Assembly: GCF_007748195.1 (NCBI RefSeq)
Contig: NZ_CP037920.1
Location: 992,001-1,056,000 of the forward strand
Origin: Gimesia aquarii
Lineage (GTDB): Bacteria; Planctomycetota; Planctomycetia; Planctomycetales; Planctomycetaceae
Length of the DNA: 64,000 nt
Reading direction: 5' to 3'
Positions within the stretch are counted from its first letter, which is position 1; every line of letters begins with the position of its first letter. Under the pieces are notes generated by a model that was given only the letters and a program-made list of their open reading frames with translations, was not told where the DNA came from and searched no databases. Shown here in pieces: positions 6,267-52,421 of the stretch. Position numbers and translations under genes: made by a program.

Positions 6267-7451
6267 TCAGATCCCCAGTTCCTGCTTGACCTCTTTGAAC
6301 TTCTCTATGGCAAAATCCAGATCCTCAATCGAATGAGCGGCTGAAATTTGTGTACGAATTCGGGCTTTTCCCTGAGGGACAACTGGGTAAGAGAATCCGA
6401 TGACATAGATTCCTTTTTGTAGCAGAGCATCGGCGACTTGCGCAGCCAGTGCCGCATCACCCAGCATAATGGGAACAATGGGATGCTCTCCCTGTAGAAC
6501 GTCAAAGCCGACTTGTGAGATGCCGGCACGGAAATGTTTCGTATTGGCTTCCAGCTTGTCGCGTAGTTCAGTTGACTCTGAGAGCAGATCAATGGCTTTG
6601 ATCGATGCCGTGACAATCGACGGTGCCACCGAGTTTGAGAATAAGTAAGGTCGCGAACGTTGTCTGAGTAAGTCGATGACTTCTTTACGACCACTGGTAT
6701 AGCCACCACTGGCCCCGCCAAGTGCCTTACCCAGTGTGCCGGTTATGATGTCGACGCGCTCCATCACATTGTGAAATTCATGAACGCCTTTTCCCTGTTT
6801 GCCCATGAAACCGACGGCGTGTGAGTCATCGACCATCACCAATGCATCGTACTTTTCTGCCAGGTCACAGATGGCGGGTAGATTTGCGATATAACCATCC
6901 ATGGAAAACACACCATCGGTGGCGATCATGCGAAAGCGAGCCGATTGGGCTGCTTTGAGTTGTTCTTCCAGATCCTGCATGTCACTATTTTTATAGCGGA
7001 ATCGATGTGCTTTGCATAAACGAACCCCATCGATGATGCTGGCATGATTCAATTCATCTGAAATAATCGCATCTTCTGCAGACAAGATCGTTTCGAACAG
7101 ACCACCATTGGCATCGAAGCAGGATGTATAGAGTATCGTGTCTTCGGTTCCCAGGAACTGACTCAGCTTGTTCTCAAGCGTTTTGTGAATGGATTGAGTT
7201 CCACAAATAAAACGGACAGACGATAAGCCATATCCCCACTGGTCCAATCCGGCATGAGCGGCAGCGATCACTTCGGGATGTTCTGCCAGGCCGAGATAAT
7301 TATTGGCGCACATGTTGAGGACCGGTTCTCCGTCCGCGACACGAATATGGGCATCTTGTGGTGTCGTAATAATACGTTCAGATTTATATAAACCTGCTTC
7401 ACGAATTGATGCGAGCGTGTTTTCCAATTCCTGTTTCATCGATCCATACAT
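6267..7451 (-). CDS. kbl: glycine C-acetyltransferase (2-amino-3-ketobutyrate CoA ligase)
   Basis: This 394-residue PLP enzyme converts 2-amino-3-ketobutyrate and CoA to glycine and acetyl-CoA, the second step of threonine breakdown. It matches the Escherichia coli Kbl pattern along its whole length ([32 protein letters not shown]). The PLP lysine is K242 in [15 protein letters not shown]. The gene lies 45 bases downstream of tdh on the same strand and is almost certainly in the same transcript. It converges with the ExbD-like gene, with 31 bases between the stops. Start at residue 1 agrees with the family; M5 is an alternative. Confidence 0.95.
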
Positions 7452-7496
7452 GGGATGAGTCCTGTTCGCTTTGTTGATTCGCTTAGAGCTTGAAGA

Positions 7497-8528
7497 TTAA
7501 ACGTTTTTCCAATCAAGGATCACTTTCCCCGATTGGCCTGAGATCATGACCTCAAATCCGGCTTCATATTCGCTGGCGTCAAAACGGTGTGTGATGACAG
7601 GGCTGATCTCAAGGCCACTTTGCAGCATCACCGTCATTTTATACCACGTTTCATACATTTCTCGACCGTAGATCCCTTTAATCGTCAACATGTTGAACAC
7701 AACCAGATTCCAATCGATGGGCATTTCCTGTTCGGGAATTCCCAGCATGGCGATCTTACCGCCGTGACACATGTTGTTAAGCATGTCACGAAATGCTTGT
7801 GGATTCCCTGACATTTCCAGACCCACATCGAAGCCTTCCGACATTCCCAGTTGTTTTTGCACATCGGCAATCGGATGGTTACGTACGTCTAAAGCGACGG
7901 TCGCCCCCATTTTTTGTGCGAGTTCCAATCGATAGGGATTCACATCGGTCACGACCACATGCCGCGCACCGGCATGTCTGACAATGGCTGCTGCCATCAC
8001 ACCGATGGGGCCTGCACCGGTGATTAATACATCTTCTCCCAGAACGGGAAATGAAAGCGCTGTATGGACGGCATTGCCAAAGGGATCAAAAATGGAAGCA
8101 ATATCACGATCAATGGATTCATCGTGATGCCAGATATTTGTCATGGGTAACGAAATATATTCTGCAAACGCACCGGGACGATTCACGCCGACTCCCTCAG
8201 TGTGTGCACAGAGATGACGCCGGCCTGCGAAGCAATTGCGACAACGACCACAGACCACGTGCCCTTCTCCACTCACAATTTCGCCCGGAGCGTAATCCAC
8301 GACGTTCGAACCGATTTCCACGATTTCGCCAACAAATTCGTGACCGACGACCATGGGCACAGGAATGGTTTTCTGAGCCCATTCATCCCATTTGTAGATA
8401 TGGACGTCAGTGCCACAAATTCCTGTACGATCGACTTTGATCAGAACGTCGTTAATTCCAATCGTGGGAACAGGAACCTCTTCCAGCCAAAGTCCGGGCT
8501 TTGATTCCTTTTTGACCAGTGCTTTCAT
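7497..8528 (-). CDS. tdh: L-threonine 3-dehydrogenase
   Basis: This zinc-dependent medium-chain dehydrogenase oxidises L-threonine to 2-amino-3-ketobutyrate with NAD+, feeding Kbl. The catalytic zinc site is in [10 protein letters not shown] and GHE. A structural zinc is held by four cysteines in [15 protein letters not shown], and the NAD loop is [12 protein letters not shown] place the start at the ATG at 8528 ([10 protein letters not shown]), which lines up with the start of E. coli Tdh; the frame also has a GTG at 8543. The promoter region upstream carries an inverted repeat and is shared with a divergent XRE-cupin regulator. Confidence 0.95.
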
Positions 8529-8598
8529 GATTCGATCACTCACTTGAAAATTTTAAGAAATATCGCAACGCAATTTCCTTCATATTGTCTGATTATCC

Positions 8599-44213: not shown

Positions 44214-44874
44214 CAGAGAGCCTTATCAGCAGGAACTTCAGGAGGGTTGTGTTGTAAGGAGGGATGAGTTCAAATAACAATAAATTAACAATATTTATTA
44301 TTATAGTCGTAAGACGACCCTGGCACAAACAATAGTTGTAATTGAAGCGAGAAAATCTCGAAGGATAAGAATTCCCAGCTGATCACGAAACATTTTTTAT
44401 TAGATCTTCGAGATCGTCACTGGCAACGAGAGACTCCAGTCGTGCTCCATTTTGAAGGCCGTTGTAATTTCATGATTGAGACCAGCTCGTCTGTTAACAA
44501 CTCATCGAGAGATTCTTGTCAGATTTTGATCAGGTAGTTCCAACTGTGAAATTGGCACTAACACAATATTGAATGTTCCAACAATGGGAGATCAGACAGG
44601 GACTCTCAAGTTTATCTGAGTGAAATGCTGATGATGTGATTTTCGGCATTACGTCACGCAATGCAAAGTAAACATTTTTGGATATCATTCAATTCCTGGG
44701 CATTTTGACATGAATGCCGTTAGCTTGAAGGAATCGTCCGACTTTCTTGAGAGTAACATCGACAGACTGACTGCTTATACATTATTCTATGCCTGACCTT
44801 TCGGTATCTGCGGGTCACAACTTTCGATCGACTCATTATCAATCCGTTTTTTTCACATCGGGACAAATCTTGCC
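44214..44874. other. 660-base spacer upstream of malic enzyme
   Basis: The region lies between two divergent genes. I see no credible protein gene; open frames are short. A small hairpin CGAGA-AAA-TCTCG lies at 44348-44360. Promoters for both neighbours must be here, but none is clear. The length is unusual for this window and could hide an RNA or a lost gene. Confidence 0.45.
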
Positions 44875-46545
44875 ATGAATTCAGGACGGTCAACAGAGGG
44901 AAACACAATTCAGAAAAAAGGAACCTTGTTGATTGAGGATCCAATTTTGAATAAGGGGACTGCATTTACCGAACAGGAACGAATTGAAAATGGGCTACTC
45001 GGTTTGTTGCCTCCGCACGTCGATACGCTCGACGAACAGGTGGATCGTGCGTATGAGGCGTTCTGTGATTTCCGTGACAATATTGACAAGCATATCTTTC
45101 TGAGACAGCTTCAGGACGAAAACGAAACATTGTTCTATCGCTTGCTGCTGGAGCATATCACTGAGATGATGCCCATTGTTTATACGCCCGTTGTAGGATT
45201 GGCCTGCCAGCGGTTCAGCCATATCTACCGACGCCCGCGCGGGATCTTCATTTCTTATCCCGAACGTGATTCCATGGATGCCATCTTCGAAAATGTGCAA
45301 CGCGATGTCGATGTGATTGTGGTGACCGACGGTGAACGCATTCTTGGCCTGGGTGACCAGGGAGTGGGCGGCATGGGTATTCCGATTGGAAAACTATCGC
45401 TCTACACTTTGTGTGGCGGGGTCGATCCTGCCAAAACATTACCAATTGTCTTGGATCTGGGAACCAATAATCAGGAACGTTTAGACGACCCGCGTTATAT
45501 GGGTTGGCGCGAGAATCGGATTAAAGGCGCTGAGTATGATGCATTTATCGGGCAATTTGTAGCAGCCGTCAAGAAGCGGTTCCCCAATGTGCTTTTACAA
45601 TGGGAGGACTTTGCATCCGTCGACGCCGAGCGAATTCTCGATCAGTATCGCGATGACCTTTGTACGTTTAACGATGATATCCAGGGCACAGCCGCTGTGA
45701 CAACAGGCACGATTCTGGCCGCAATTGCCGCTTCCGGGAGTGATCTGAAAGACCAGCAGATTGTCATGTTGGGAGCGGGTTCTGCCGGCGTGGGGATCTG
45801 TTTACAACTGAAACAGGCCATGTTACTCGCGGGAATGAGCGAACCGGAAGCCCGTTCGCGTTTCTACGTGATCGATCGAGATGGTTTATTGCATTCTGGC
45901 CGAACGGATCTGGACGAACTGCATCAACAGTTGGCGCAGTCACCTGAAAATCTAAACGGCTGGGACTGCGATGTGTCGGGGTCGATCTCTTTTGCAGATG
46001 TGGTTCGCAACAGCAAGCCGGGAGTGCTGATTGGAGCGACCGGACAAACGGGTGCCTTCTCTGAGGACATTATTCGCGAAATGGCAAAACACGTGGAACG
46101 ACCTGTAATCTTTCCGCTTTCGAATCCGACTTCACGGGCAGAAGCGACTCCAGCCGATTTACTGAAGTGGACTGATGGCAAAGCGGTGATCGCAACCGGG
46201 AGCCCTTTTGATCCTGTCGAATATAATGGGGTCACGCATACTATCGCACAATGTAACAATAGTTATATTTTCCCCGCGATGGGTCTCGGTATTCTGGCTT
46301 CTCGGGCACGACGCGTTACCGATTCCATGTTTATGGCCGCGGCATCGGCACTCAAAGAAACTTCACCGGCGCTCAAAGATCCGACTGCATCGTTACTGCC
46401 TCCATTGACTAACATTCGCGAAGTCGGGCGACATATTGCGAAGGCCGTTGCTGCAGCGGCGATTGAAGCTGGTGTGGCTGATTCCGTTACTCCCGATGAA
46501 ATTGATCAGCGGATTGAGCAAACCATGTGGAATCCAGAGTATTAA
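44875..46545 (+). CDS. maeA: NAD-type malic enzyme
   Basis: This 556-residue enzyme oxidises malate to pyruvate and CO2 with NAD(P)+. It matches the large SfcA/MaeA class along its length (E. coli form 565 residues): MPIVYTPVVGLACQ, the lysine phrase GIPIGKLSLYTLCGG, LQWEDFASVDAERIL, TFNDDIQGTAAVTTG and the nucleotide loop MLGAGSAGVGIC. The cofactor is more likely NAD+ by class, but this is not proven. A pyruvate decarboxylase gene follows after 60 bases in the same direction, so the product pyruvate has an immediate consumer. Confidence 0.92.
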   Translation: MNSGRSTEGNTIQKKGTLLIEDPILNKGTAFTEQERIENGLLGLLPPHVDTLDEQVDRAYEAFCDFRDNIDKHIFLRQLQDENETLFYRLLLEHITEMMPIVYTPVVGLACQRFSHIYRRPRGIFISYPERDSMDAIFENVQRDVDVIVVTDGERILGLGDQGVGGMGIPIGKLSLYTLCGGVDPAKTLPIVLDLGTNNQERLDDPRYMGWRENRIKGAEYDAFIGQFVAAVKKRFPNVLLQWEDFASVDAERILDQYRDDLCTFNDDIQGTAAVTTGTILAAIAASGSDLKDQQIVMLGAGSAGVGICLQLKQAMLLAGMSEPEARSRFYVIDRDGLLHSGRTDLDELHQQLAQSPENLNGWDCDVSGSISFADVVRNSKPGVLIGATGQTGAFSEDIIREMAKHVERPVIFPLSNPTSRAEATPADLLKWTDGKAVIATGSPFDPVEYNGVTHTIAQCNNSYIFPAMGLGILASRARRVTDSMFMAAASALKETSPALKDPTASLLPPLTNIREVGRHIAKAVAAAAIEAGVADSVTPDEIDQRIEQTMWNPEY

Positions 46546-46605
46546 CACAGCAAGTCATGTTGCATCTTAGGATGATATGCGCATCAATTGATATAAGGAA
46601 ATTTC

Positions 46606-48300
46606 ATGTCTGATCATTGCACTACTACAGTTGGTTCCTATCTTGCTTCACGGTTGGAAGAAATCGGTTTACAACATTACTTCGCTGTGCCGGGTGACTA
46701 TAACCTTGTCTTGCTCGACAAGCTGCTGGAAAATAAAAATATGCAGATGATTTCCTGCTGTAATGAATTGAACGCAGGGTATGCCGCCGACGGTTATGCG
46801 CGGGCCACAGGAGGCGCCAGCGCCGTCTTTGTCACTTACAGTGTCGGAGGTTTGAGTCTGCTCAATGCTATTGCGGGGGCGTATGCTGAAGACTTGCCGG
46901 TGATCGCCGTTTCGGGAGGGCCGAATACCAATTCGGAATCCGAATTTGAAATGTTACATCACACGCTGGGGACGCTCGATTATGACTATCAACGTGATAT
47001 CTTTTCAAAGGTGACTGCCGAAGCGGTCACGATCCATGATCCTCGCGAAGCACCTGCCCAAATTGATCATGCCATTCAAACGGCACTTCGTTTTCGCAAA
47101 CCTGTTTATATTGAGATTGCCTGCAACATCGCTTCGGCTGTGACTGCGGAACCGACTGTGCGAGAATTCGGAGGACCGACGGCCAGTGATCCACTGTCAC
47201 TAAACGCCGCCGTTGAACACGCGGCAGAACTGCTGAATTCAGCGGTCAAACCTGTGATGGTCGCAGGTGTCAAACTACGTTCGTTTGGAGCAGAGGAACA
47301 TTTTCATAAACTGGCGGATGCGTCGGGGTATGCAATCGCCACAATGCCCAACGCAAAAGGTTTTTTTGACGAGCAGCATGCGAACTACATCGGAATCTAC
47401 TGGGGTCCCGTGGGTTCACCCGGCTGTGGAGAAATTGTCGATTCTGCAGATCTCTGCTTGTTTGCCGGCCCTACGTTTACTGACTATACCACAACAGGAC
47501 ATGCGGCTTTGATTAATCCGACGCAAGTCATACAAGCCTTACCGAACAGTGTGGTGTTCCCCGACCGTACTTTCAGTAATGTCAAATTAGCAGATTTTCT
47601 TGAGTCACTTTCCACGAAACTGAACCCGAATGATGCATCGATGGTGGCCTATAAACGAATTCAGGAAGAAGTGACGCCACTCCGCCCCGGGGCACCGGAA
47701 ACAGCTCTTTCCACACGTCAACTCTTTTCACGCATTCAACAGATGTTAGGCCCCGATTCCGCAGTGATCGCGGAGACGGGTGATTCGTGGTTCAATGGAA
47801 TTCAGCTCGATTTGCCGACAGGTTCACGGTTTGAAGTCCAAATGCAATACGGTTCGATCGGCTGGTCTGTTGGTGCCACGCTGGGGTATAGTATCGGTGC
47901 ACCGAATCAGCGTCCGATTGCTCTGATTGGAGATGGCTCGTTTCAACTGACGGCTCAGGAGGTCTCCACGATCATTCGTTACGGATTGAAACCGATCATT
48001 TTCCTGATCAACAATGGTGGTTATACAATTGAAGTGGAAATTCATGATGGACCGTACAACACCATTAAGAACTGGAATTACGCGGAACTGGTGAAGGTCT
48101 TCAATGCAGAAGATGGAAATGGCTGGAGTTGCAAGGCTGGTACAGAAGGGGAACTGGACGAAGCGATTCAAAAAGCGGTGGCCCATAATGGTCCTGCCTT
48201 CATTGAAGTGCTCATCGACCGGGACGATTGCAGCAAGAATCTGCTTGTCTGGGGAGGGCATGTCGCCAAAAACAATGGCCGTCCACCACACTCTGCATAA
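46606..48300 (+). CDS. pdc: pyruvate decarboxylase, Zymomonas type
   Basis: This 564-residue thiamine-diphosphate enzyme turns pyruvate into acetaldehyde and CO2. It aligns closely with Zymomonas mobilis PDC: AVPGDYNLVLLDKLLENKNM, CCNELNAGYAADGYARA, TYSVGGLS and YTIEVEIHDGPYNTIKNW. Catalytic residues are in place: D31, E54, the histidine pair H118-H119 and E476. The cofactor loop is GDGSFQLTAQEV from G442. Indolepyruvate or other keto acids remain possible, but the active site is PDC-like. The ribosome site is AAGGAAA. Bacterial PDC is uncommon. No alcohol or aldehyde dehydrogenase gene is adjacent. Confidence 0.88.
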   Translation: MSDHCTTTVGSYLASRLEEIGLQHYFAVPGDYNLVLLDKLLENKNMQMISCCNELNAGYAADGYARATGGASAVFVTYSVGGLSLLNAIAGAYAEDLPVIAVSGGPNTNSESEFEMLHHTLGTLDYDYQRDIFSKVTAEAVTIHDPREAPAQIDHAIQTALRFRKPVYIEIACNIASAVTAEPTVREFGGPTASDPLSLNAAVEHAAELLNSAVKPVMVAGVKLRSFGAEEHFHKLADASGYAIATMPNAKGFFDEQHANYIGIYWGPVGSPGCGEIVDSADLCLFAGPTFTDYTTTGHAALINPTQVIQALPNSVVFPDRTFSNVKLADFLESLSTKLNPNDASMVAYKRIQEEVTPLRPGAPETALSTRQLFSRIQQMLGPDSAVIAETGDSWFNGIQLDLPTGSRFEVQMQYGSIGWSVGATLGYSIGAPNQRPIALIGDGSFQLTAQEVSTIIRYGLKPIIFLINNGGYTIEVEIHDGPYNTIKNWNYAELVKVFNAEDGNGWSCKAGTEGELDEAIQKAVAHNGPAFIEVLIDRDDCSKNLLVWGGHVAKNNGRPPHSA

Positions 48301-48380
48301 TGGAATCAAAACCATGATGGTCTTGCTTTTAAAGCTACATAAGCGTGAATGTTTGCAAAATAGACTGAGGATGGAAATTG

Positions 48381-48791
48381 ATGGAAGAAGTCTGTGAATT
48401 GCCCGATGGGAAGTTGATTCTGCGAACCCTGGCGATGCCCGCCGACACCAATGCGAACGGAGACATTTTTGGTGGCTGGATCATGTCACAGATGGATATC
48501 GCTGGTGGAATTATGTCGAAAGAGATTTCGAGTACACGCACAGTGACCATTGCCGTTGAATCGATGAAATTCATTCGACCCGTCAAGGTAGGGGATGTCG
48601 TATGTTGTTATGGAACGGTTGAAAGAATTGGTACGACATCTATTAAACTGCAACTTGAAGTCTGGGTAGAGCCGGTGCTGCGGCATGAAGATTCCAATTG
48701 TCCCTACTTTAAAGTCACAGAAGCTGCGTTTACTTATGTGGCCATTGACAAACATGGCAAGAAAACACCGATTGTTAAACAAGGCACTTAA
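48381..48791 (+). CDS. acyl-CoA thioesterase, YciA-type hotdog
   Basis: The 136-residue hotdog-fold protein hydrolyses acyl-CoA thioesters. Typical phrases are LAMPADTNANGDIFGGWIMSQMD (with the catalytic aspartate in the ANGDIFGG loop) and ESMKFIRPVKVGDVV. The ATG at 48381 has GAGGA upstream; a TTG at 48378 is not needed. It lies 80 bases after pdc and may share its transcript. The acyl substrate is unknown. Confidence 0.85.
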   Translation: MEEVCELPDGKLILRTLAMPADTNANGDIFGGWIMSQMDIAGGIMSKEISSTRTVTIAVESMKFIRPVKVGDVVCCYGTVERIGTTSIKLQLEVWVEPVLRHEDSNCPYFKVTEAAFTYVAIDKHGKKTPIVKQGT

Positions 48792-48988
48792 ACGGCTCTC
48801 AAATTCACACTCGCATTAAACAGAGATTCATCGTCGCCTGTCTGTTGTCACGAGCACATTCCGTGTACAATGGGGATGACTCACTGAGTCTGATTGAAGT
48901 GAATGTACCAGAAGCAAAAAGTGAAGAACTTCTGTTGGCTAGGAATATTTTCAACCGCCAATGAACAGTGCGAAAGGATCAGAAACTC

Positions 48989-50440
48989 ATGAAGAAAGTG
49001 GCGATTATTGGTGGAGGGTTCAGTGGGACAATGGCAGCCGTCAATTTGGCGCGACTGAGCACAGGTCCTCTTTGCATTCAACTGATCAATGATAAATATC
49101 CGCTGGGGCGTGGCGTGGCCTATGGTACGAAACGCGAAGAGCATCTTCTGAATGTGGCAGCGCGAAATATGTCGGCTGTTCCCGACCATGCCAATCATTT
49201 CCTCGACTGGCTCCGGACCCGCGTTGATTACAGCGACTTACCAGATCCTCAACTTCGTGAGACATATGTGCCACGACGGATTTATGGAGACTACTTGCGC
49301 AGTATATTGTCAAACTATATGCAGCCGATCGATAGTCACCATCCTGCTGAAATTCATGTGATCGAAAATGAAGCCGTAGATATTGAACTCAATTATGATG
49401 GATGTGCAGAGATCACTCTCAAAGATGGAGAAACAGTCGAAGCGGACCGTGTCCTGCTGGCCACTGGCAATCAGCCTCCCTCACCTGTCGCATTTTCTGA
49501 TCACTCGTTTTCACACCCCGCTTATTCGCCAGATCCGTGGGGAAACTGGATGGAACAAATTCCTGATTCGAAGGAGGATGTTATTGTCCTGGGAACAGGG
49601 CTATCGATGGTCGATGTCTTCCTGACACTCAGCGAGCAGGAATGGGAGGGGAATATCATTGCGATTTCCCATAATGGGATGATTCCCCAAGCCCATTTTC
49701 GTGGAATCGAGTATCCCGATTTTCTACCACCCGAACCGGAAAAACTGGGACTTGAGAAGCTTGTCGAATTGTTGGAAAAACATTGTCGACAACTGCAACG
49801 GATCGGAGAGAATCCGGGAATCGTTGTGGATCGTTTGCGACCACATACCCAGCGCATCTGGCAGCAGTTTCTGGTGTCCGAAAAACAGGAGTTTCTCAAA
49901 CGTTATGCAGCACGCTGGAATGTGATCCGTCACCGGATTGCCCAACCCATTCACCAACGGGTCACAGAAGCCATTACGGAGGGGCGATTACGTGTGATGC
50001 GTGGTCGCATTTCCGGACTGAGAGAGCAAGGTGACAAAGTGGAAGTGGCACTTCAAGACAAATCAGGAAACGAACAAATGCTGTCAGGGGGACTGGTTGT
50101 AAATTGCACGGGTCCCAACAGCGGTTTTTCAGACACCAGTGTCCCATTGTTTCAAAACCTGTTGAAACGGGGATTGATTCGACCCGATGAACTGGACATG
50201 GGCATTGATGTGGCCGCAGATTTTGCAGTGATGAATGCGGAAGGAAATCCATCTGAGTCTTTGTTTGCCATTGGTCCTTTGATGAAAGGGACACTTTGGG
50301 AAACAACGGCCGTTCCCGAATTACGTGGTCAGGCAATGCGAGTCGCTCAACTGCTCCTGGATGATGTCGCATTGGTCACGCCGGGACATGATTATCGATT
50401 CTCTGTCGAAGAAGAGCATGTCATCGAGTATTATATTTAA
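48989..50440 (+). CDS. FAD/NAD(P)-binding protein, YdhS-like
   Basis: The protein of about 483 residues opens with an FAD loop (VAIIGGGFSGTMAAVNLA) and has PLGRGVAYGTKREEHLLNVAARNMSAVPDH, a second dinucleotide loop VIVLGTGLSMVDVFL and a C-terminal FAIGPLMKGTLWETTAVPELR. It belongs to the NAD_binding_9/YdhS group of putative oxidoreductases whose reactions are mostly unknown. I choose the ATG at 48989, with AAGGA twelve bases upstream; a GTG at 48968 is in frame. It follows the thioesterase by about 200 bases. Confidence 0.8.
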   Translation: MKKVAIIGGGFSGTMAAVNLARLSTGPLCIQLINDKYPLGRGVAYGTKREEHLLNVAARNMSAVPDHANHFLDWLRTRVDYSDLPDPQLRETYVPRRIYGDYLRSILSNYMQPIDSHHPAEIHVIENEAVDIELNYDGCAEITLKDGETVEADRVLLATGNQPPSPVAFSDHSFSHPAYSPDPWGNWMEQIPDSKEDVIVLGTGLSMVDVFLTLSEQEWEGNIIAISHNGMIPQAHFRGIEYPDFLPPEPEKLGLEKLVELLEKHCRQLQRIGENPGIVVDRLRPHTQRIWQQFLVSEKQEFLKRYAARWNVIRHRIAQPIHQRVTEAITEGRLRVMRGRISGLREQGDKVEVALQDKSGNEQMLSGGLVVNCTGPNSGFSDTSVPLFQNLLKRGLIRPDELDMGIDVAADFAVMNAEGNPSESLFAIGPLMKGTLWETTAVPELRGQAMRVAQLLLDDVALVTPGHDYRFSVEEEHVIEYYI

Positions 50441-50822
50441 TGGATTTGCAGTTGTGACGTTCGCCAAAATTGCCAGAGGGATAATCAGTCCCTTTGCCCC
50501 GCTCATTGCTCAAATGACAGAGATCGTTATTTTTTACATGAGTTCAATTACCTCTGTTTCTGAAATTTAGCAGAAAGTCCGTTTGCAATCTCTGTGTAAA
50601 TAGGATGTTTAGGTTGTTTGTGTTGATAGGTATTTTAAAAAGGAGGAAGTGACCTAAGTTTATAGAAGAACAGCGATACCAGAAGCCCGATATTTATGAG
50701 GGATATTACTCTGGACTGTTGTTTGGGATTAACTCGTTTTATTCGGGTGAGATGTATAAACGCAAGACAAAATGATCAGAGTGAAGCTCTAAAACACGCC
50801 GATCTAGTCAAGATGACTTCGT
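50441..50822. other. 380-base spacer before the acyl-CoA ligase
   Basis: No gene is visible. A textbook ribosome site (AGGAGG at 50641-50646) is followed only by GTG-ACC-TAA, so it serves no real frame. The region is AT-rich and probably holds the ligase promoter. Confidence 0.45.
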
Positions 50823-52421
50823 ATGAACTCTACCACTGATTTTTTATCAAAACTGTTATTTATCAAGAGTGGCATTGATTCAAACTGGGACTATCAGTTC
50901 AACCCCGTTGAGAGTCAGGAAACAACGTCTCGTTTCAGCTTGGGAGAGCTGTTTTGTGACGTCGCAACCCGCCATGCGGACCGACCTGCGATTTCAAATT
51001 CCGTAGCATCGTGGAAGTATCATAGCCTGCTGTCTGCGGCCCAAAAAATATCTGATCAACTCCAAAGTCATCCTGAATATCAGCCAGGCCATCGTGTGAT
51101 TCTCTTAGTGCCTAACTCGATCGCCTATATTGCTGCGTTTTATGGAATCTTAATGTCGGGGGGAGTTGTAGTTCCTTTGCCCGCTAATACAGAGCGAGGA
51201 ACACTCCAGAAGATCCTCGAATCAACAGAAGCCTTTTATATTATTTCGACTTCGCAGGTTCTGAGTCGACAGCCTGACTTAAAAGGACTTCAGAGTGATA
51301 CCATCTGTAATGATGAGTTAGGAGCACAAAACCAAACGATTCCTCCAAAGCCCATTGTCACCACCGCAGATGATCTGGCTGCGATTTTTTTCACAGCTGG
51401 TTCCAGTGGTAAGCCAAAAGGGGTGATGCTCAGTCATTCCAACTTGATTTCGAATGCACAATCGATTCAGGAGTATCTTGAATTGAAAACGGATGAGCGT
51501 CCTTTATGTGTGCTGCCATTTCATCATGCGTTTGGAAATTCCATCTTGCAGTCACATATCTTGTTGGGTGCGCACTTAGTTTTAGATGGTAACGCCTTAT
51601 TCCCAGAGAGCATTGTGAAATCTGCAATTCTTCATCGTTGTACCAGTCTGTCTGCAGTACCAGATTTATTCCGGATTTTATTAGAGCGAACGTCTTTTAA
51701 GAAAGCCAATCTTTCCTCATTACGCTATATGTCGGTAGCCGGTGGTGCATTGCCGCACGCGATTTCTGTTGAAATCAGTCAGTGTATTGCCCCCGCTCGC
51801 TTTTATGTGATGTATGGTCAGACAGAGGCAACGGCCCGCCTGGCTTATGTGCCTCCTGAAGATCTGCCCGAGTTAGCTGACGGGTGCATTGGTCGCGCGA
51901 TTCCAGGAGTGATTCTGGAAGTAGTGGATGAAAAAGGACGTGCGACTGAGCCGGGAACTGTGGGAGAGCTACGTGCCAAAGGTGCCAATGTCATGCGAGG
52001 ATATTGGCGCGATGCGACAGAAACGAGAAAACGCATCAGAAACGGTTGGTTGTACACAGGAGATCTGGCAACAATGGACGAGGCAGGTTGGATTATCCTC
52101 AAGGGACGACGTAATGCGTTAGTCAAGATCTCTGGTTACCGAGTTCACCCGGTTGATCTGGAAGAGTTTGCCCTGAGATCATTCCCCATTTCGCAGGCAG
52201 TAGCTGTACCGTTCGAATCAAAAGATGTAGGGACTCGATTGGCTTTGTATATCAAATTGAATTCCAAAGCTGACCAAATATCAGTTTCTGAAATGAATGC
52301 GATTTGTCGTAAAAACCTGCCGCGACAAATGGTTCCGGATTTCATTAAAATTGTTGAATCATTTCCATTAAATCATGCCTTCAAAATAGACCGTTCGCAG
52401 CTATCGGTATCAGCGGAATAA
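50823..52421 (+). CDS. AMP-forming acyl-CoA ligase / adenylate-forming enzyme
   Basis: This 532-residue ANL-superfamily enzyme activates a carboxylic acid with ATP, usually then loading it on CoA. Motifs are FFTAGSSGKPKGVMLSHSN (phosphate loop), YGQTEATARLAYVPPE, YTGDLATMDEAGWIILKGR, the hinge in GRRNALVKISGYRVHP and the catalytic lysine near the end in NHAFKIDRSQL. The fatty-acid or aryl substrate cannot be named. No carrier protein is nearby. The gene stands alone between two long spacers. Confidence 0.87.
   Translation: MNSTTDFLSKLLFIKSGIDSNWDYQFNPVESQETTSRFSLGELFCDVATRHADRPAISNSVASWKYHSLLSAAQKISDQLQSHPEYQPGHRVILLVPNSIAYIAAFYGILMSGGVVVPLPANTERGTLQKILESTEAFYIISTSQVLSRQPDLKGLQSDTICNDELGAQNQTIPPKPIVTTADDLAAIFFTAGSSGKPKGVMLSHSNLISNAQSIQEYLELKTDERPLCVLPFHHAFGNSILQSHILLGAHLVLDGNALFPESIVKSAILHRCTSLSAVPDLFRILLERTSFKKANLSSLRYMSVAGGALPHAISVEISQCIAPARFYVMYGQTEATARLAYVPPEDLPELADGCIGRAIPGVILEVVDEKGRATEPGTVGELRAKGANVMRGYWRDATETRKRIRNGWLYTGDLATMDEAGWIILKGRRNALVKISGYRVHPVDLEEFALRSFPISQAVAVPFESKDVGTRLALYIKLNSKADQISVSEMNAICRKNLPRQMVPDFIKIVESFPLNHAFKIDRSQLSVSAE

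Follow-up and report, generated by a model that had tools for sequence, protein, structure and literature searches.

A malic enzyme gene beside a pyruvate decarboxylase gene

Here we describe two neighbouring genes of the marine planctomycete Gimesia aquarii that probably form a functional unit leading from malate to acetaldehyde, by way of a malic enzyme (ME) and then a true bacterial pyruvate decarboxylase (PDC). They lie in a window of 64,000 nucleotides, analysed as a whole, that spans positions 992001-1056000 of a single-contig genome of 7,397,129 bases (NZ_CP037920.1); coordinates are those of the window unless genome positions are specified. The ME gene occupies 44875-46545 (+ strand, 556 aa) and the PDC gene 46606-48300 (+ strand, 564 aa). 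As an initial annotation of this DNA had it, ME stands directly upstream of PDC: both open reading frames (ORFs) are complete and are 60 bp apart (46546-46605, + strand). The gap has an AAGGA-like ribosome site immediately 5' of the PDC start codon, and a scan of the + strand from 44214 to 50900 found no terminator-like sites; promoter-like sites numbered 16 against 9.6 expected by shuffling and were given no weight. We infer both activities, co-transcription, the direction of flux, and the fate of acetaldehyde from sequence.

Judged by its domains and relatives, the first ORF encodes a malic enzyme of the Escherichia coli MaeA (SfcA) type, which would convert malate to pyruvate, CO2, and NAD(P)H. 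Both PF00390 (malic) and PF03949 (Malic_M) score far above their Pfam cut-offs, and a score of 823.5 bits against NCBIfam PRK13529 (cut-off 326) assigns the protein to that subfamily. Its best PDB relative is 6ags, the E. coli NAD malic enzyme, which it resembles over nearly its whole length (652.9 bits, residues 14-556), with the difference that the window ME adjoins a PDC. Identity as a malolactic enzyme was rejected, the NF041582 score of 584.6 being below the cut-off of 850. At the thresholds used, ME is the sole match of its own type in the genome. Alignment to the human NADP enzyme gave no safe call on NAD versus NADP preference.

The second ORF is assigned, on similarity, phylogeny, and active-site residues, to the true PDCs of Zymomonas type, which would convert pyruvate to acetaldehyde and CO2. 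Every one of its ten highest-scoring PDB relatives bears the name PDC, or is the ancestral PDC ANC27, at 550-628 bits. Other decarboxylases score lower: yeast PDC reaches approximately 308 bits at best, a KdcA-like/ketoisovalerate decarboxylase 304, the indolepyruvate decarboxylases 289-293, and a phenylpyruvate decarboxylase 197. Over aligned columns, identity is 51.4% to Zymomonas PDC (ZmPDC), 31.1% to the indolepyruvate decarboxylase EcIPDC, and 25.4% to the phenylpyruvate decarboxylase AzPPDC. A tree of 78 rows, which took in 60 of 82 close loci, places the protein in a 65-row clade with ZmPDC and a Gluconobacter PDC (support 100/100) that excludes EcIPDC, Klebsiella IpdC, and KdcA; the order of the outgroup is unsure because some outgroup references are long-branched, as the tool warned. 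The AlphaFold model of PDC is moderate (mean pLDDT 65.6); with it, Foldseek returned ZmPDC at the top and only bacterial PDCs and ANC27 at ranks 1-19.

The catalytic residues named in the initial annotation, D31, E54, H118, H119, and E476, all align with ZmPDC D27, E50, H113, H114, and E473, which we take to be the catalytic residues of that enzyme. Likewise Y294, T391, W395, I475, and I479 match ZmPDC Y290, T388, W392, I472, and I476, of which Y290, T388, W392, and I476 presumably line the small-substrate pocket, so that 10 of 10 checked catalytic and pocket positions agree with ZmPDC. EcIPDC carries T, Q, A, and V where the window protein has Y294, T391, W395, and I475. Across the clade the pocket Y, T, and W are kept in 94 of 94 rows and the isoleucine at ZmPDC 472 in 91 of 94. 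We took this isoleucine as the counterpart of GdPDC Ile468, which excerpts of PMC4428508 propose as a specificity residue; according to the same excerpts GdPDC, which belongs to this family and has the isoleucine, prefers pyruvate and has no detectable indolepyruvate activity. The genome also encodes a paralogue as a separate gene (genome positions 3637146-3638729) whose highest-scoring PDB match, at 332 bits, is phenylpyruvate decarboxylase.

Conservation and recurrence of the pair

In a phylum sample of 392 genomes a close PDC (at least 85% identical) was found in nine, which are all nine same-genus genomes of the sample, and the matches outside Gimesia, at 29-40% identity to the window PDC, come from more remote proteins. 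At the level of the family, 10 of 120 genomes carry a PDC of at least 67% identity, the same 10 carry an ME of at least 72%, and the two genes are always adjacent. Three further genomes of the family have an ME 59-60% identical without a true PDC. A Gimesia metagenome-assembled genome (MAG; L086) has a PDC 91% identical to that of the window. When four regions from other genera of the family were compared, ME and PDC were the only window ORFs found in the surrounding 12-17 kb. The pair in these regions lies near cytochrome b, CtaG, and a glutamate-synthase-like protein, with an NDH-2-like NADH dehydrogenase by it in three of the four (L075-L077); the neighbours of L076-L078 were partly judged by eye, from similarity to scanned proteins. 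Matches of 29-37% to the window PDC, in genomes without a true PDC, occur in 81 of the 120 family genomes.

To survey bacteria more broadly, one genome per species from 84,980 species was scanned with an alignment of seven PDCs. With a permissive threshold this gave 288 PDC relatives, the best 80 of which, with at least 53% identity in the best segment, were examined as loci; 63 of the 80 had at least 1 kb on both sides, and some come from the same genomes as the family survey (e.g. L088, L093, L098). An ME match was present in 17 of the 80 and directly adjacent in 16, with a gap of approximately 48-303 bp. ME precedes PDC in 11 planctomycete loci (gap approximately 48-112 bp), PDC precedes ME in two planctomycete and two cyanobacterial loci, and the genes are divergent in a Legionellaceae MAG. 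As controls, ME was found at none of 39 loci of decarboxylase paralogues, and PDC at none of the 25 loci, representing 22 distinct genes, that were taken from other planctomycete MEs lacking a true PDC; Fisher's test of 16/80 against 0/39 gives p = 0.0013, with relatedness ignored. The scan also qualifies the initial view that such enzymes are uncommon in bacteria. While excerpts of PMC5947705 call bacterial PDCs rare, with six characterised, the 288 relatives suggest that the family is more widely spread than the characterised examples indicate.

The MEs linked to PDC do not form a single group on the ME tree. Fifteen planctomycete PDC-linked MEs form one clade (98/96), those of the cyanobacteria, the Legionellaceae, and loci L163 and L094 fall elsewhere, and the PDC-linked label, which extends to L110, where ME lies at a distance of 3.7 kb, and to the second ME of L149, needs at least five changes. 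In two cyanobacteria a fumarase is close by, the gene orders being fumC-PDC-ME in a chroococcidiopsid MAG (L140) and PDC-ME-SDR-fumC-ME, where SDR denotes a short-chain dehydrogenase/reductase, in Phormidium tenue (L149); both fumC products score above the TIGR00979 cut-off. In the other PDC loci fumarase was seen only as an 82-residue fragment, in L160.

A comparable arrangement is found on the Gluconobacter sphaericus plasmid pSJF2-a (NZ_CP068420, 44264-61934; locus L244), where fumC and an NAD malic enzyme lie 2.1 kb from PDC. There PDC adjoins a citrate lyase cluster and an AEC transporter, and fumC-ME is divergent on the other side. Fumarase, ME, and PDC thus occur together as in the cyanobacteria, but this ME is only 40% identical to that of the window, two LysR genes stand between ME and PDC, and the cluster adjoins citrate lyase and a transporter, unlike the window pair; it looks like an independent assembly. 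On both Gluconobacter plasmids seen (L243, L244) PDC lies beside a citrate lyase cluster, an AEC transporter, and a porin, and the region is possibly an organic-acid-to-acetaldehyde island on mobile DNA. Cyanobacteria, a Legionellaceae MAG, and a Gluconobacter plasmid all show the pairing again, with unrelated MEs and with the genes ordered differently.

Downstream of the pair in the window are genes for a YciA-type acyl-CoA thioesterase (48378-48791, + strand; NCBIfam PRK10694, 170.8 bits, cut-off 162) and an FAD/NAD(P)-binding protein (48968-50440, + strand; Pfam PF13454). Both adjoin the pair, with gene order retained, in all eight same-genus regions and in none of the four regions from other genera. 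Synteny thus gives no support outside the genus for either as a fixed part of the unit, and the membership of the thioesterase, like that of the FAD/NAD(P)-binding protein, is uncertain. Elsewhere in the window (6267-8543, - strand) is a gene of the zinc alcohol dehydrogenase family; together with a neighbouring ORF, which we take to resemble 2-amino-3-ketobutyrate CoA ligase, it is probably a threonine dehydrogenase pair.

Three Haliea/Halioglobus MAG contigs (L090, L091, L092) carry PDCs that are 82-84% identical to that of the window and fall inside the Gimesia PDC clade (100/100), without an adjacent ME; this nesting suggests that Halieaceae acquired the gene from a Gimesia-like planctomycete. 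In L092, where the other neighbours look gammaproteobacterial (BamB, Der, by eye), PDC stands beside a member of a 415-aa family that we call 'GDKK' (L075:6435-7679 and homologues), found near PDC in 6 of the 80 loci. G. aquarii has its own copy (genome positions 6711757-6713001) beside an NDH-2-like gene, and seven members are 63-77% identical to it. Neither Pfam nor NCBIfam has a model that matches the family. Its members look, by eye, like 4-hydroxyphenylpyruvate dioxygenase-like proteins, and the structure model (pLDDT 50) is too poor to check this.

Fate of acetaldehyde and competing explanations

If the assignments are right, the pair would constitute a module from C4-dicarboxylates (malate, fumarate) to acetaldehyde, a bacterial counterpart of the malo-ethanolic fermentation of yeasts. 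The malate-pyruvate-acetaldehyde route proposed in the initial annotation is strengthened at the sequence level by conservation of the pair, by its recurrence, and by the fumarase nearby in other lineages. Acetaldehyde could then be reduced to ethanol with NADH from the ME step, conversion of malate to ethanol and 2 CO2 being redox-neutral by our own count; alternatively, an ALDH2-like aldehyde dehydrogenase could oxidise it to acetate, with the NADH respired. Ethanol or acetate is the most likely fate.

Enzymes using acetaldehyde were expected outside the window, and candidates are indeed encoded in the genome, unlinked to the pair: an aldehyde dehydrogenase (genome positions 3457401-3458786) with 650 bits to mitochondrial ALDH2, a zinc alcohol dehydrogenase of TIGR02822, and two clear iron alcohol dehydrogenases. 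A further aldehyde dehydrogenase (genome positions 1346967-1347731), of PRK15398 type (581.7 bits) and thus presumably a CoA-acylating enzyme of the microcompartment type, is a possible alternative sink. The idea that PDC stands in for a missing pyruvate dehydrogenase was ruled out, given that an AceE-type pyruvate dehydrogenase E1 is present (1373.6 bits).

With modest confidence, we lean towards a broader view in which ME and a true PDC, in some lineages with fumarase, represent a type of bacterial operon that has been assembled repeatedly and that breaks down C4 dicarboxylates to acetaldehyde by fermentation or as overflow. This would amount to a malo-ethanolic pathway of bacteria, shared by acetic acid bacteria, Legionellaceae, cyanobacteria, and the planctomycetes, which are usually regarded as aerobes. 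A number of observations weigh against the pair as a functional unit. Among the best 80 PDC loci, 64 have no directly adjacent ME, planctomycetes are over-represented because the query was weighted towards them, and several of the ME-linked loci are MAG contigs. In a sample of 386 cyanobacterial genomes, a PDC at least 48% identical to the seed occurs in four, with ME within 1.5 kb only at the seed itself, and the additional loci have neither ME nor fumarase within that distance. Finally, the pair has no alcohol or aldehyde dehydrogenase as a neighbour, and the AceE-type enzyme implies that the pair is not the sole way to use pyruvate.

It is quite possible that the route serves aerobic metabolism, as a malate-fed bypass of pyruvate dehydrogenase in which acetaldehyde yields acetate and acetyl-CoA rather than ethanol and NADH is respired. 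Consistent with this explanation are the ALDH2-like dehydrogenase, the cytochrome b and CtaG genes near the pair in genomes of the same family, and the NDH-2-like genes, which besides L075-L077 are also found near the pair in L124, L139, L144, and the cyanobacterial L140. The genome holds alcohol dehydrogenases too, however, the dehydrogenases of both kinds are unlinked and are candidates only for acting on acetaldehyde, and pyruvate dehydrogenase already yields acetyl-CoA.

It is unlikely that the adjacency is incidental, with PDC using glycolytic pyruvate and ME acting separately in NADPH supply or C4 balance. The PDC loci without an adjacent ME and the three family genomes with ME alone speak for such an arrangement. 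We nevertheless conclude that the pairing of ME with PDC is not incidental, since the two co-occur perfectly in 10 of 120 family genomes while their flanks are replaced outside the genus, since the pair recurs in separate lineages with unrelated MEs and in some with fumarase, and since both controls gave zero.

It is very improbable that the second protein is instead a decarboxylase specific for indolepyruvate or phenylpyruvate, or one acting broadly on 2-oxo acids. The best NCBIfam model is TIGR03393, for indolepyruvate decarboxylase, but at 380.4 bits the protein falls far below its cut-off of 946, as it does for TIGR03394 (238.2 against 554.5). The tree groups it with bacterial PDCs and not with either of the two other classes, the outcome that the reading of the initial annotation required, its pocket residues are PDC-like, GdPDC of the same family is without detectable indolepyruvate activity in the excerpts cited above, and the phenylpyruvate-type paralogue is encoded separately. 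A role in biosynthesis or carboligation rather than energy metabolism is equally improbable: acetaldehyde is a substrate of acyloin-forming enzymes, threonine aldolase, and deoxyribose-phosphate aldolase, but in the neighbourhoods examined none of the corresponding genes was linked to the pair, and the fumarase and NDH-2-like neighbours point to catabolism.

Relation to known pathways and significance

Among known systems the nearest is malo-ethanolic fermentation as carried out by Schizosaccharomyces pombe and Zygosaccharomyces bailii, in which ME, PDC, and alcohol dehydrogenase act in sequence; the first two reactions are the same and in the same order. The pairing of the two enzymes is well known from wine yeasts. 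Excerpts of PMC7555314 describe it as conversion of malate to ethanol and CO2 with NADH reoxidised. ME and PDC are both encoded in the G. aquarii genome, with the differences that here the genes are adjacent and bacterial, and that the alcohol dehydrogenase step has candidates only. The corresponding yeast genes are, we presume, unlinked. Compared with yeast PDCs (approximately 30-33% identical by Foldseek), the window PDC is of bacterial type. With respect to the bacterial enzymes ZmPDC, GdPDC, ApPDC, and ZpPDC, it falls in the same clade as ZmPDC (100/100) and keeps the catalytic and pocket residues. ZmPDC serves sugar fermentation; the window enzyme, approximately 50% identical to it, differs in its planctomycete host and its ME partner.

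PDC-like sequences were noted in 2014 in Legionellaceae, cyanobacteria, and others, with no planctomycete named in the passage concerned (PMC4428508). Our literature search for a bacterial ME-PDC gene pair, which covered titles and the opening parts of abstracts and left most subscription papers outside its reach, returned no description. Both enzymes belong to known families; their combination as a bacterial gene unit is apparently new.

If the proposed route is correct, these genes would supply new PDCs for ethanol engineering, and they raise the question of whether Gimesia-like planctomycetes, when short of oxygen, turn malate into ethanol or acetate. Bacterial PDC would range more widely in nature than the sugar fermenters and the acetic acid bacteria. 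For malate and the other C4 acids that algae and plants commonly produce, there would be a direct route to acetaldehyde, and on to ethanol or acetate, in bacteria from which none is known.

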